Positions 10,414 through 27,794 of a DNA stretch of 64,000 bases are shown here, piece by piece. Each line of letters begins with the position of its first letter. Within the stretch, counting starts at the first letter, position 1. The DNA lies in contig NC_014963.1 in NCBI RefSeq assembly GCF_000179915.2, positions 4,650,001 through 4,714,000 on the forward strand, written 5' to 3'. A program made the position numbers and the translations under genes. This DNA is from Terriglobus saanensis SP1PR4. Its GTDB lineage: Bacteria > Acidobacteriota > Terriglobia > Terriglobales > Acidobacteriaceae. A model generated the notes under the pieces. That model was not told the origin of the DNA. It made no database searches and was given only the letters and a program-made list of their open reading frames with translations.

Positions 10414-10671
10414 ATGGTTGAAAAAAACAAATTGAAGGAAGCTGAGTCAGCAGAGACGATCCCGGAAGATCTCGCCATCGAAATCCGCAAACTCGCGCAC
10501 GATCTCAGCAACTCGCTGGAGATCATCGTGCAAACAAGCTATCTCCTCGGTACGACTGAGCTGAAACCGCCCGCTGACGACTGGATGCGCATGCTCGACA
10601 ACGGCGTGCAAAAATCGCTCGAAATCAATCTGCGCCTGCGTGAATACATCAAAAACCACACCACCCGCTAA
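10414..10671 (+). CDS. Small histidine-kinase dimerisation/phosphotransfer-like protein
   Basis: An 85-residue protein starting at ATG 10414 (the frame continues upstream over the tRNA and promoter but that part is not protein-like). The core RKLAHDLSNSLEIIVQTSYLL resembles the H-box helix of sensor kinases, where the His before Asp-Leu is phosphorylated, followed by a second helix (DDWMRMLDNGVQKSLEINLRLREYI) as in a DHp hairpin. There is no ATPase domain. It could be a stand-alone phosphotransfer or anti-kinase domain. The nearby convergent receiver protein at 11080-11688 is a possible partner. Ribosome binding site GGAG lies 14 bases upstream, rather far. Confidence 0.6.
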   Translation: MVEKNKLKEAESAETIPEDLAIEIRKLAHDLSNSLEIIVQTSYLLGTTELKPPADDWMRMLDNGVQKSLEINLRLREYIKNHTTR

Positions 10672-10675
10672 CAAA

Positions 10676-10992
10676 AGGTTTAGTGCCCCATTCCCTCGCA
10701 GCTTCATCGCGAAACCGGGGTCCCCGGCGAACGGCTTTTTGTTCGCTGGAGTGGGATAGGGTGGGGTCGCGCGGAGCGCACAAACAGATTCCTTAGGAAA
10801 CTCAAAGCTGGGTGCCCCATACATCGCGTTCTTTGCGATGTGTGGGTATGCGCAAAGCGCATCGTTCGCTCGAAGAGCGACCAGCGTATCCCTCCGCTTC
10901 GCTACGGGATGACGAAAATTCAGGTTGGTGAATGATCAGGATCGTGAACTTACCCCACCCTTTCGCAAAGAGCGCGAAAGAATGGGGCACGA
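10676..10992. repeat. Composite intergenic repeat, copy 1
   Basis: A mosaic of modules seen elsewhere in the window: a GTGCCCCATTC...GCGAAA / CCCCACCCTTTCGC...GCGAAAGAATGGGGCAC pair at the two ends, a GGGTGCCCC hairpin (stem 10816-10827 with 10835-10846, 12 bp including one G-T), a GCGCAAAGCGC stem, and a TCCGCTTCGCTACGGGATGAC module. No coding potential. Related copies are at 12650, 24578, 27756, 46066, 52700 and 62565. Confidence 0.75.
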
Positions 10993-11079: not shown

Positions 11080-11688
11080 CTACCGCTTCTTAGCAGCCTT
11101 CTTCACAACCACTTTCTTTTTCTTCGCGGGAGGCTTGGCTTTCTTGGCGGGAGCAACCTTCTTCGCTGGCGCAACCACCTTCTTCGCCGCAACTCTCTTC
11201 TTCACCACAGCCTTCTTAGCCGCCGTCTTCGTCGACTTCTTCACCGTAGCCGAGCGCTTCGCAGCGGACTTACCCGTCGTCCTCACAGGCGCAGCCTTCT
11301 TCACGGTCACGCCGCTCAATTCATTCTGGCGCGCCACGAAAAGATCCTCCAGCTGCTGCAGAAGCACACGCGTATGCATCGGCTTCACCAGCATCTGGTC
11401 CGCTCCCATGTCCTGCCAGGAGATATCGTCCACCGGAAACGCCGTCAGCAGCGCGACCGCAGGTTTGTAGGAAACCTTGCGCGCCTCGGCGATCACATCC
11501 TCACCCGCGCGCTCATCTTCCATGCGCATATCGGTGATCACCATCTCGTACTCGCGATGGCGGATACGCGCCTTCCCCTCGCGGGCAGAGGTGGCAGTAT
11601 CTACATCGAATCCACTGATCTCCAGCACAGCTTTAAGCGTAAGCAGAACAGCAACTTCATCATCGACAAGCAGAATGCGGCGTTTCAT
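11080..11688 (-). CDS. Response regulator receiver domain with histone H1-like Lys/Ala-rich tail
   Basis: A 202-residue two-part protein. Residues 1-120 form a CheY-like receiver with the full active site: Asp9-Asp10 acid pocket, phospho-acceptor Asp53 (MVITDMRM), Thr82 and Lys102 (LVKPMH). Residues 130-202 are a low-complexity tail of AKK/VKK/PAKK repeats with about 26 Lys and 4 Arg in 73 residues and no acidic residue, like the C-terminal domain of histone H1 and bacterial Hc1/AlgP-type proteins that bind DNA without sequence specificity. There is no helix-turn-helix. A phosphorylation-controlled DNA-compacting or nucleoid protein is the natural inference; it is not proven. A strong terminator follows. 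Confidence 0.88.
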   Translation of the reverse strand: MKRRILLVDDEVAVLLTLKAVLEISGFDVDTATSAREGKARIRHREYEMVITDMRMEDERAGEDVIAEARKVSYKPAVALLTAFPVDDISWQDMGADQMLVKPMHTRVLLQQLEDLFVARQNELSGVTVKKAAPVRTTGKSAAKRSATVKKSTKTAAKKAVVKKRVAAKKVVAPAKKVAPAKKAKPPAKKKKVVVKKAAKKR

Positions 11689-11945
11689 ATCTTTTGATGT
11701 TCCTCTTCATTCGAATATGCTTCCATCGCACTGCGCAGTCTGCTGTGTAGCAGGCGCAACACTACGTTTTACAGCATAGAAGGTTTGCGCCCTCCGCGGG
11801 GCTCTTGGGCTACTATCCCTCACAACAACCCTTTACTTTTCGCGCAAATGATATACTTTGCCTTGCAGACGACCCTGTGAAACGCGTGCAGCATCCAACT
11901 TCTCGCGCATGATTTCACCAGAGAGTCGCATCTGCGGAGGCAATT

Positions 11946-12593
11946 ATTCCACCGTTTACTGACAAGCGAGCCATCAAAAGCTTCATCCGTACCAACGAAA
12001 AGATCCGCGCGAGAGAGATCCGCGTCATCGACGAAAACGGCGAACAGATGGGCATTATGGCCCCGTTCGACGCTCTGAAGGTCGCCCGCGAACGTGGGCT
12101 GGATCTCGTCGAGATCTCCCCCAACGCCGTTCCCCCCGTCTGCCGCATCCAGGACTACGGCAAGTACCTCTACGAAAAAGATAAGAGCGACCGGGCTGCC
12201 CGCAAGAAGCAGAAGGTCATCGTCATCAAGGAAGTCAAATTCTCGGTCACCGTGGACGAGCATGACTACCAGACGAAGAAGAACATGGCTGTCCGCTTCC
12301 TCGGCGACGGCGACAAGGTGAAAGCCTCCCTGCGTTTCCGCGGCCGCCAGATGGCGCATCGCGACCTGGGCTACAAGATCATCAACCGCCTCATCATGGA
12401 TATCGGCGACGCTGGCATCGTAGAGTTCATGCCCCGCATGGAAGGCACCACGCTGCACGCCATCATCGCCCCGACCAAGAAGGCGGAAGCCCCCGCACCG
12501 CCCAAGAAGGTCGAAGCTCCAGCGGCTCCAAAAGCCGCCGAAGCCGCCGCACCTGTTCCCGCTCCGGTCGCAGAGACAGTTCCCCAGGCCTAG
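11946..12593 (+). CDS. infC: Translation initiation factor IF-3, AUU start
   Basis: IF-3 binds the 30S subunit and proofreads start codons. The sequence shows the N-domain (SFIRTNEKIRAREIRVID, then MGIMAPFDALKVARERGLDLVEISP), the YGKYLYEK linker and the C-domain (KEVKFSVTVDEHDYQTKKN, RFRGRQMAHRDLG), then an extra Ala/Pro/Lys/Glu-rich tail of about 45 residues. From the in-frame stop at 11910-11912 to residue 35 there is no ATG, GTG, TTG or CTG codon, so the start must be rare; ATT at 11946-11948 lies five bases after GGAGG (11936-11940). E. coli infC also starts with AUU and is autoregulated by it. A strong terminator follows. Confidence 0.95.
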   Translation: MPPFTDKRAIKSFIRTNEKIRAREIRVIDENGEQMGIMAPFDALKVARERGLDLVEISPNAVPPVCRIQDYGKYLYEKDKSDRAARKKQKVIVIKEVKFSVTVDEHDYQTKKNMAVRFLGDGDKVKASLRFRGRQMAHRDLGYKIINRLIMDIGDAGIVEFMPRMEGTTLHAIIAPTKKAEAPAPPKKVEAPAAPKAAEAAAPVPAPVAETVPQA

Positions 12594-12649: not shown

Positions 12650-12870
12650 TGACCCATTCTTTCGCAGTTTTATCGCGAAAGGGTGGGGTTCGCGCGGAGC
12701 GCATAAACCAGATTTCTCAGGAAACCCATAATCGGGTGCCCCACACATCGCGCTCTTTGCGATGTGTGGGTATTCGCGCGGAAGCGCGAACCGCTTTTAC
12801 AACTTCCACTCCATCGGATCCAATAACGGAACCAGCATCCCTCCCGCACATCGCAAAAACGCGATGTACG
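12650..12870. repeat. Composite intergenic repeat, copy 2
   Basis: Carries the same modules as the copy at 10676: CCCATTCTTTCGCAG...CGCGAAAGGGTGGGG, a CGCGCGGAGCGCA module, and a GGGTGCCCC hairpin with a perfect 12-bp stem (12740-12751 with 12759-12770), followed by a GCGCGGAAGCGCG stem. No coding potential. Confidence 0.75.
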
Positions 12871-12916: not shown

Positions 12917-13870
12917 TTATCCCGCCTTCTGCCCCCGCCGACAGACAATACTCAACTTCTCCGTAGCCAGAATTCGCCGCGCCTGGGTCCGCGCATGCGT
13001 CGCCCAGGGTCCCACCGGGTCCAGACGGACATAGGCCTGCCAGTATTTCAGGGCTTTCCGACGCTGCCCCTGCCTTTCGTAGGCCAGCGCGAGGTTGTAA
13101 TGGGCGTCCGCGTACTCAGGGACCAGCGCAATGGCACGCTGGTACGCCACAATGGCCTCTGGAAGCCGCTGGAGCTCGTCCAGGACGTTCCCAAGGTCGA
13201 AGAAGGCCAGGGCGTAGAAGGGATCGACCTCGGTGGCGTAGCGATACCTCTGCTCCGCTTCCTCAAACTCTCTCTGGTTGTACAAAATCGTCCCCAGATT
13301 GATCGAAGAAGCCGCATGCTTCGGCTGAATCCGCAGGACCTCGCGATAAAGCCCGGCGGCCTCTGTCACAGTCGTGGGCTCCTCTTCCTTCTGGACGGCC
13401 TTCAGGAAGAGCTCCTGCGCCTGTTGGGCGATGCGAGAGACGTGCTCGGCGTCCGGTTTGCGGGTCGCCACCATCTGCGAGGGAATCTTTCCCGCCAGCT
13501 CAAAATCGAAGACCAGCTGGTGCGTCTGGGGATCCACCAGCGCTCCGCTATGGCGGAAGACGAGCCGCGAACCCCGCGGGACCGGGCTGGCCTCGCGCAG
13601 TGGGTTGAGCGTGCCAACCAGCTTCTGCATGGCGGAGACCGAGTTGCGAATATTCCGCGGCGAGATACGCGCCGCGCAGATCTCCCGCAAGCGGCGGAGA
13701 TGCGATAGATCTTCAAAAGTGTACGATTCGGCCACGTGCATCAGGCCAGAGCGCTGCCACGACGCAATCTGCCGCGCAGGCAGACGCAGAATCCGCGCCA
13801 GATCCTGACGGGTAAACCGCGTCACAGGCGAGGAAGCATTCAGCGCAGCAATGGCAAGCGTTTCAGGCAC
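12917..13870 (-). CDS. MerR-like DNA-binding domain fused to TPR repeats
   Basis: A protein of about 317 residues. The N-terminal part (VTRFTRQDLARILRLPARQIASWQRSGL... FEDLSHLRRLREICAARIS) has the helix-turn-helix and wing pattern of MerR-type regulators. The C-terminal half has three to four tetratricopeptide repeats (for example ASSINLGTILYNQREFEEAEQRY, ALAFFDLGNVLDELQRLPEAI, ADAHYNLALAYERQGQRRKAL). The frame continues 5' through a tRNA gene, so that extension is not coding; GTG at 13868-13870 or a TTG at 13907-13909 are the plausible starts, neither with a clear ribosome binding site. Target and ligand are unknown. Confidence 0.78.
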   Translation of the reverse strand: MPETLAIAALNASSPVTRFTRQDLARILRLPARQIASWQRSGLMHVAESYTFEDLSHLRRLREICAARISPRNIRNSVSAMQKLVGTLNPLREASPVPRGSRLVFRHSGALVDPQTHQLVFDFELAGKIPSQMVATRKPDAEHVSRIAQQAQELFLKAVQKEEEPTTVTEAAGLYREVLRIQPKHAASSINLGTILYNQREFEEAEQRYRYATEVDPFYALAFFDLGNVLDELQRLPEAIVAYQRAIALVPEYADAHYNLALAYERQGQRRKALKYWQAYVRLDPVGPWATHARTQARRILATEKLSIVCRRGQKAG

Positions 13871-13986
13871 GTTACGTGCGAGTATGCGGCCACAGACACG
13901 CACAATCAAGGCTTCGCAAGCGCCAAACGCAGAAATGCGTGGATAACTTGTACCAACATGGGTTCCGGAGGCTACGGAAGGGTGAC

Positions 13987-14062
13987 TGGAGCCGACGAGC
14001 GGACTTGAACCGCTGACCTGCTGATTACGAATCAGCTGCTCTACCAACTGAGCTACGTCGGC
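13987..14062 (-). tRNA. tRNA-Thr(CGT)
   Basis: The minus strand gives a complete cloverleaf: acceptor GCCGACG/CGTCGGC, D-arm with GTAGCTCAGTTGGTAGAGC, anticodon stem GCTGA/TCAGC around TTCGTAA (anticodon CGT), T-arm with GGTTCAAGTCC, and an encoded CCA at 13987-13989. It lies about 115 bases upstream of the MerR-TPR gene on the same strand. Confidence 0.96.
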
Positions 14063-14401
14063 CTGCAAGGTCGATTCTAACGGCAAGTTACTGGTTCCAC
14101 CAAACGCGAGAGCCTATGCCGCCCTGAGAGTCGCCAAAGCCGCCTCAGACGCCCCCGGAAACATGAAAAGGCCGCCCGGAAACCGGGCGGCCTTTTCGTC
14201 AGGGAGAATAGTTCCAACGGAGGCAAAGCCATCAGAACTTTCTGGCGAAATACTATGTTTCATGGAAAGCCCATGTCAAGGATAAACCTATGGCATATTC
14301 AAATACTTTAGAATCAATAGTTTGAAGATTTGCATGAATCGCTAATCGGCCATCTTGCTTTGCCTTTTGTTCGCCTTTTTCCTAAGCTTCGCCGAGCCCG
14401 C
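14063..14401. other. Intergenic region between tRNA-Thr and a secreted protein gene
   Basis: Holds a strong bidirectional terminator (listed separately) and, to its right, an AT-richer stretch (about 14220-14340) in which I see no gene, RNA or repeat. The tRNA promoter should lie just right of 14062 but no clear hexamers are visible. Confidence 0.5.
14166..14196 (-). terminator. Bidirectional intrinsic terminator
   Basis: A 14-bp perfect stem (AAAAGGCCGCCCGG, loop AAA, complement) with A and T runs at either side. It lies about 205 bases after the stop of the gene at 14402-15538 and upstream of tRNA-Thr, separating the two transcripts. Confidence 0.85.
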
Positions 14402-24577: not shown

Positions 24578-24745
24578 TGTCATCCCGCAGGGATCTGCTT
24601 GTCTCAAAAGCAGATCCCTTCACTTCGTTACGGGAAGACAAAAGAGAGGAAGAACACCCAACCGGGTGCCCCATGTCCCGATTTTGGGACATGGGGTATG
24701 CGCGCAGCGCATCCTTCGCTCAAAGAGCGACCCCATTACCCCAGA
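24578..24745. repeat. Composite intergenic repeat, copy 3
   Basis: Contains TGTCATCCCGCAGGGATCTGCTT...AAGCAGATCCCTTCACTTCGTTACGGGA (inverted arms, written here as two short pieces), then a GGGTGCCCC hairpin with a perfect 11-bp stem (24669-24679 with 24686-24696) whose stem sequence differs from the other copies, then GCGCGCAGCGC and GCTCAAAGAGC stems. Confidence 0.75.
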
Positions 24746-27755: not shown

Positions 27756-27794
27756 TGAAGCAGATTCCTCCGCTTCGCTACGGAATGACAAAGT
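27756..27794. repeat. Short fragment of the intergenic repeat family
   Basis: Carries GCAGATTCCTCCGCTTCGCTACGGAATGACAAA, given in pieces: GCAGATTCC, TCCGCTTCGCTACGG and AATGACAAA. The same module is seen in the copies at 10676 and 62565 (there as TCATCCCGTAGCAAAGCGAAGG in the opposite orientation). Confidence 0.55.

Follow-up and report, generated by a model that had tools for sequence, protein, structure and literature searches.

A CheY-like receiver fused to a histone H1-like lysine tail in Terriglobus saanensis and its relatives

In this work we describe a protein of 202 residues from Terriglobus saanensis SP1PR4 in which a CheY-like receiver is followed by a long, disordered tail resembling that of histone H1. 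The gene occupies 11080..11688 on the minus strand of the window, by which we mean the whole stretch of 64,000 nucleotides that was analysed (contig NC_014963.1, positions 4,650,001 to 4,714,000); the genome is one contig of 5.1 Mb and belongs to the genus Terriglobus, family Acidobacteriaceae. Judged from its conservation and from the codon changes in its tail, this is a real, conserved and selected fusion, a new arrangement of known parts. We propose, at a rough probability of 0.45, that a phosphorelay receiver of the Acidobacteriaceae, with a stand-alone partner of the dimerisation and histidine phosphotransfer (DHp) type, gained once a long disordered lysine tail that would bind polyanions and probably the nucleoid.

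The receiver and its lysine tail

The open reading frame had been singled out in an earlier, sequence-only reading, whose coordinates were right and whose strand was left unstated. The strand is minus, and a plus-strand reading of 11080-11688 was rejected as an unrelated shadow frame. In a Pfam search the 202-residue protein matched Response_reg (PF00072) with 57.9 bits over residues 5-113 (cut-off 30.2) and no other domain. By sequence it belongs to the CheY-like response regulator receiver family (PF00072). The active-site residues Asp9, Asp10, Asp53, Thr82 and Lys102 sit at the positions that had been claimed for them, and among 44 aligned homologues Asp9, Asp10, Asp53 and Lys102 are invariant, with Thr82 kept in at least 90%. 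The receiver, whose phospho-acceptor Asp53 is encoded at 11530..11532 (minus), is probably switchable by phosphorylation.

An AlphaFold2 model built from 44 sequences gives a predicted local confidence (pLDDT) of at least 90 to 113 of the 202 residues, all of them in the receiver, and runs the last receiver helix from residue 106 to 125; with this extended helix the receiver covers residues 1-125 (11314..11688, minus). CheY-like receivers stand at the top of the Foldseek matches listed for it, the best being a CheY (4h60, E 6.4e-9). Fold and active-site residues are the same as in stand-alone receivers of the CheY/Spo0F type. Those receivers end after the last helix, and here a polycation is added.

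The tail, residues 130-202 (11083..11301, minus), has the composition that had been read from it at first: 26 Lys, 4 Arg and no Asp or Glu in 73 residues, the rest being 18 Ala, 11 Val, 5 Pro, 5 Thr, 3 Ser and 1 Gly. Residues 1-120, by comparison, are mildly acidic (17 Lys or Arg vs 22 Asp or Glu). Such a tail is not a product of chance, because the runner-up stretch of 73 residues among the 269 stop-to-stop frames of at least 100 residues in the window holds 13 Lys. In the structural model, a check that the sequence-only reading had proposed, the receiver is folded and the tail has no secondary structure, at a pLDDT of about 50. Long, poor in acidic residues, disordered and rich in Lys, Ala and Pro, as is characteristic of H1-like proteins, the tail resembles by composition those of bacterial H1-like tail proteins (AlgP, HupS and Hc1).

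What the protein is not can also be said. There is no structured helix-turn-helix output domain, either in the Pfam search or in the modelled tail, and the protein falls outside the classical DNA-binding response regulators of the OmpR, NarL and NtrC types. Nor is it linker histone H1 proper, the globular winged-helix H1 domain not being found by Pfam at E values up to 1. None of the three HU matches in the T. saanensis genome carries a lysine tail, and the idea that such a tail is an HU trait of this genome was therefore rejected.

Is the charge of the tail kept by selection? We formed 25 disjoint related pairs from the 75 genes with long tails (defined below), with receiver DNA identities of 0.80-0.995. 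Lys stands on one side or on both in 540 aligned tail columns; of these, 274 have the same codon, 116 differ synonymously, 40 pair Lys with Arg, 7 pair Lys with Glu and 103 are of other kinds; for single-base differences alone the comparison is 116 synonymous vs 2 Lys-Glu. Since a single transition suffices to turn AAG into either AAA or GAG, Lys-Glu change is 17 times (all differences) to 58 times (single-base differences) rarer than synonymous change. Although the aligner is biased toward Lys-Lys columns, the same pattern holds in the ten closest pairs (38 vs 1). The receiver has a dN/dS ratio of 0.081; for the tail the ratio is 0.214, with dS, at 1.19, near saturation. These comparisons indicate that the lysine charge of the tail is under purifying selection while the tail sequence drifts.

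Lysine-rich repeats with size variation, as in this tail, are found in chlamydial Hc1 and in BpH1 of Bordetella. To our knowledge, neither Hc1 and Hc2 nor BpH1 has a signalling domain, unlike the receiver fusion here. The same likeness extends to the repeats of chlamydial Hc2 (PMC2848022). In AlgP and PhaF of Pseudomonas, disordered C-terminal repeats of Lys, Pro and Ala have been compared with the H1 tail; DNA binding is reported for a C-terminal fragment of AlgP and for KPAA peptides, and AlgP itself has been proposed as a tether of polyphosphate granules to the nucleoid (PMC9239181). AlgP differs from the present protein in having an N-terminal putative helical domain, no receiver and no phospho-acceptor, and in building its repeats from KPAA rather than AKK/VKK. 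HupS and HupB of actinobacteria likewise carry a disordered tail with KK doublets on a small domain; acetylation of HupS, with its lysine-repeat domain, lowers DNA affinity about 2-fold and also lowers nucleoid compaction, and lysine-repeat domains are said to occur predominantly in DNA-binding proteins (PMC11229371). There the tail is part of an HU protein and acetylation has an effect, whereas the three HU matches of T. saanensis are without one.

No description of a receiver fused to an H1-like tail was found among the open-literature records listed, searched by titles and the starts of abstracts with subscription journals mostly outside the search; because those journals are mostly uncovered, this is weak evidence of novelty. 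The terms "response regulator" and "histone" were not found in a term search of the main text of a Granulicella omics paper (PMC7074687).

Spread of the receiver and age of the long tail

All 19 genomes of the genus have an orthologue of the receiver (E 1e-25 or better). The concern, raised with the sequence-only reading, that the tail might be absent or not basic in close homologues was not borne out: it is basic in all 19, with a net charge of +8 to +38 counted from residue 125. At E 1e-18 or better, a receiver-only search matched 196 of the 300 family genomes, and 56 of the 79 genera, in a sample where many genomes are incomplete and some of the weaker matches may be paralogues. Matches in other families of the class are weaker (E 5e-28 and up); the 14 that were read (L202-L215) are about 40-45% identical and have Arg-containing ends of 11-22 residues, and we rejected them as orthologues. 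Searches of the genomes with the tail by itself gave no credible match besides the window's own tail; as the method recovers just 2 of the 19 known tails of the genus, it is blind and its negatives are meaningless.

We built a maximum-likelihood tree on the first 122 residues of 127 distinct receiver proteins, identical ones having been merged and some loci possibly coming from the same genomes. Of the 20 loci L202-L221, the tree omits the 14 class-level ones and three more distant family receivers (L216-L218), and includes L219-L221. A tail was called long if it had at least 40 residues from residue 119 and a net charge of at least +10, a threshold fixed after the tails had been seen. On this definition all 75 long tails fall in one clade of 78 rows, with support of 99/97 in a tree that rests on few columns and has a bootstrap that is not fully settled. 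The clade, made up of acidobacteria from soil, takes in Terriglobus (including Terriglobus roseus and Terriglobus albidus), Granulicella, Edaphobacter and Bryocella. None of the 49 rows outside it, among them Paracidobacterium, Acidipila and Acidobacterium sp. S8, has a long tail, and the ends there are shorter and weakly basic or near-neutral. The long tails have a median of 77 residues (42-130) and a net charge of +21; for the 52 rows not classed as long (the 49 outside and three clade members) the figures are 34 residues (4-77) and +5 (0 to +9).

Conservation of both halves across genera, named with the sequence-only reading as support for its idea that phosphorylation may control DNA compaction or access, holds for the receiver and, in 75 of the 78 clade rows, for the long tail, and it fails for the long tail outside the clade; the idea is supported in part. 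Because the 49 outside orthologues are without a long basic tail, the basic job of the receiver predates the H1-like tail and is independent of it. Taken together, the tree and the tail lengths are explained most simply by a single extension of a weakly basic end into an H1-like tail, with later weakening in a few lines.

Three public assemblies (L118, L123 and L152) are titled Rhodanobacteraceae or Verrucomicrobia, yet they hold clear Acidobacteriaceae copies of the locus; the titles are probably wrong.

A DHp-like gene and other surroundings of the locus

The sequence-only reading had treated the receiver gene alone and missed a small gene convergent to it (10414..10671, plus), which encodes a stand-alone DHp-like protein of 85 residues. 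Its neighbourhood, co-occurrence, two-helix model and Foldseek matches make it a likely partner of the receiver. A candidate phospho-accepting residue, His29 (10498..10500, plus), is invariant in 32 aligned proteins, where it stands in an HDLSN, HELSN, HELGN or, once, HNLSN box, and all 17 DHp-like copies fetched apart from the receiver keep it. In DHp and HisKA domains the rule is a conserved His followed by E/D-x-x-T/N. The predicted structure is a two-helix hairpin (helices 18-46 and 54-82), so that the model and the alignment together give the protein both the hairpin and the boxed His of a DHp domain. Foldseek ranks 1-7 are chains with DHp domains of histidine kinases or ethylene receptors, but the best E value is 0.17; it belongs to 7n0e_A, a 60-residue chain from a RetS-GacS DHp co-complex (TMt 0.85 over 55 columns). 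Spo0B and ChpT similarly place a DHp hairpin outside a kinase. They keep a degenerate ATPase-like domain, and the 85-residue protein has no ATPase domain. A weak Herpes_IE68 match of the DHp-like family was set aside as noise.

The DHp-like gene was matched in 208 of the 300 family genomes, nearly always as a single copy (some matches cross a stop codon). Across the phylum, 33 of 297 sampled genomes gave a match, and 32 of those are Acidobacteriaceae. Counting both genes over the family, 175 genomes have both, 21 the receiver only, 33 the DHp-like gene only and 71 neither; with one genome per genus the counts are 49, 5, 8 and 17 of 79 (Fisher p 1.8e-7), figures that ignore phylogeny and genome incompleteness and come from thresholds that differ between the two genes. 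Of 60 named clade loci, 39 have the two genes side by side; none of 20 other loci does.

On the other side of the receiver gene, and divergent from it, lies infC (11943..12593, plus; Pfam IF3_N and IF3_C), the gene for translation initiation factor IF-3, which we use as a landmark of gene order and not as part of the system. Of 80 named loci, 59 show it close to the receiver in divergent orientation, and contig ends account for some of the remaining 21; in Paracidobacterium L150 an open reading frame of 496 residues stands between the two. An ATG is missing where infC most likely starts: read from the ATG at 12048, the protein enters the IF3_N profile at position 20, and the open frame extends upstream past two ATT codons (11943 and 11946), which suggests a start before 12048. 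An AUU start is typical of infC. The IF-3 protein (12048-12590, plus) also has an extension of about 39 residues, rich in Ala, Pro, Lys and Glu, past the IF3_C match.

A scan for promoters and terminators gave results at chance level. Copies of a 72-base repeat, 85% identical, lie on either side of the receiver-infC block (10782-10853 and 12706-12777); they hold an internal inverted stretch (CATCGC...GCGATG) and look like an interspersed REP-type element, and a peptide shadow of a similar repeat is seen elsewhere in the genome (L234, 1049-1429). A second dispersed repeat of 34 bases occurs at 10883-10916, 24609-24642 and 27759-27792, the latter copies being 79-85% identical to the first. Beyond infC, a gene on the minus strand (12920-14086) fuses a MerR-like stretch (Pfam MerR_1, 21.5 bits vs a cut-off of 21.6) to TPR repeats. 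Three Terriglobus loci (L102, L104 and L112) have a MerR-like/TPR gene close to infC.

Possible roles of the tail

The scheme we propose would run as follows. The tail would have been gained in the ancestor of Terriglobus, Granulicella, Edaphobacter and Bryocella. H1 tails bind DNA without sequence specificity, and by analogy with them and with the AlgP tail this one may bind polyanions, most likely nucleoid DNA, in the same unspecific way. The DHp-like protein would give phosphate to Asp53 or take it from there. Phosphorylation might then alter dimerisation, or the docking of the tail onto the acidic receiver, and a two-tailed phospho-dimer would bridge or hold DNA differently from a monomer. 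DNA binding and phospho-control of the tail protein are what we infer from sequence data. In the strongest form of the proposal, a dedicated Acidobacteriaceae module of DHp protein and receiver would end, in the one clade, on an H1-like polycation in place of a promoter-binding domain, and phosphate flow would directly set the compaction or bridging of the chromosome or of other polyanions, making the protein a signal-switched bacterial linker histone; this form we regard as rather unlikely.

Several observations weigh against our proposal. Its long tail is specific to one clade and so, as the sequences stand, not needed for the ancestral job; three Terriglobus tails (L016, L017 and L019) are weakened, with 5-7 acidic residues, and the clade members L132, L138 and L151 have weak tails that fall outside the long class. 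RNA, polyphosphate or mere retention at the nucleoid would leave the same sequence signature as DNA compaction, and the binding of RNA or of polyphosphate competes seriously with DNA binding as an explanation. For the partner, no HisKA or other kinase-family Pfam match was obtained with 12 members of the DHp-like family and a PDB sequence profile search of the family found no kin, which makes its DHp identity a structural assignment; unrelated helical hairpins appear from Foldseek rank 8 with similar E values. The pairing itself rests on co-occurrence, and 54 of the 300 genomes are discordant for it.

The DHp-like protein could instead serve another regulator, its place beside the receiver being chance gene order. 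Counting the gene itself, the genome offers 31 receiver-like places at E values up to 10, and the DHp-like gene was not found adjacent in 21 of the 60 clade loci or in any of the 20 others, although some flanks end at contig ends. Co-occurrence across genera and the near restriction to Acidobacteriaceae argue the other way, and we consider this somewhat unlikely.

A second alternative leaves nucleoid structure unchanged: the tail would be a nucleoid or polyphosphate tether that holds a CheY-like or phosphate-shuttle receiver in place. This would suit the retention of the receiver in orthologues with short ends; the data here do not separate tethering from compaction, and we think it quite unlikely.

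Lysine tails can bind any polyanion, and the protein might therefore be a translation- or RNA-linked response regulator whose tail binds RNA or ribosomes and not DNA. The divergent place near infC is in keeping with this, and so is the presence of EutV bound to RNA (6ww6) among the Foldseek matches listed, since receivers with RNA-binding outputs exist. However, the link to infC is seen about as often in loci outside the long-tail clade (15 of 20) as within it (44 of 60); it is therefore older than the tail, and gene order alone may account for it. EutV works through an ANTAR domain, unlike the protein here, in which Pfam finds no domain beyond the receiver. We judge an RNA role distinctly unlikely. 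Finally, low-complexity repeat expansion might have produced the tail as a by-product that does little. Its repeat-like units, its length turnover and its higher dN/dS might suggest as much, but this reading is very improbable given the rarity of Lys to Glu change relative to synonymous change at Lys codons and the long basic tail kept by nearly the whole clade.

Returning to the proposal of a phosphorelay receiver that gained a polyanion-binding tail, the architecture and the evolutionary series are clear from the sequences compared, and the functional claim is plausible. The partner gene yields a second specific prediction, phosphotransfer from His29 to Asp53. The orthologues grade from ends that are short and weakly basic into long H1-like tails and offer a natural experiment in how such tails originate. 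Among bacterial proteins, HU and AlgP-type ones carry histone-like lysine tails (PMC9239181, PMC11229371). Lysine tails also occur on topoisomerases, and control of the tailed proteins is, as far as is known, by abundance or acetylation. If our proposal is true, joining such a tail to a receiver that can be phosphorylated would make the link between signalling and the nucleoid directly open to test, and would let these bacteria adjust nucleoid organisation to signals quickly and reversibly.
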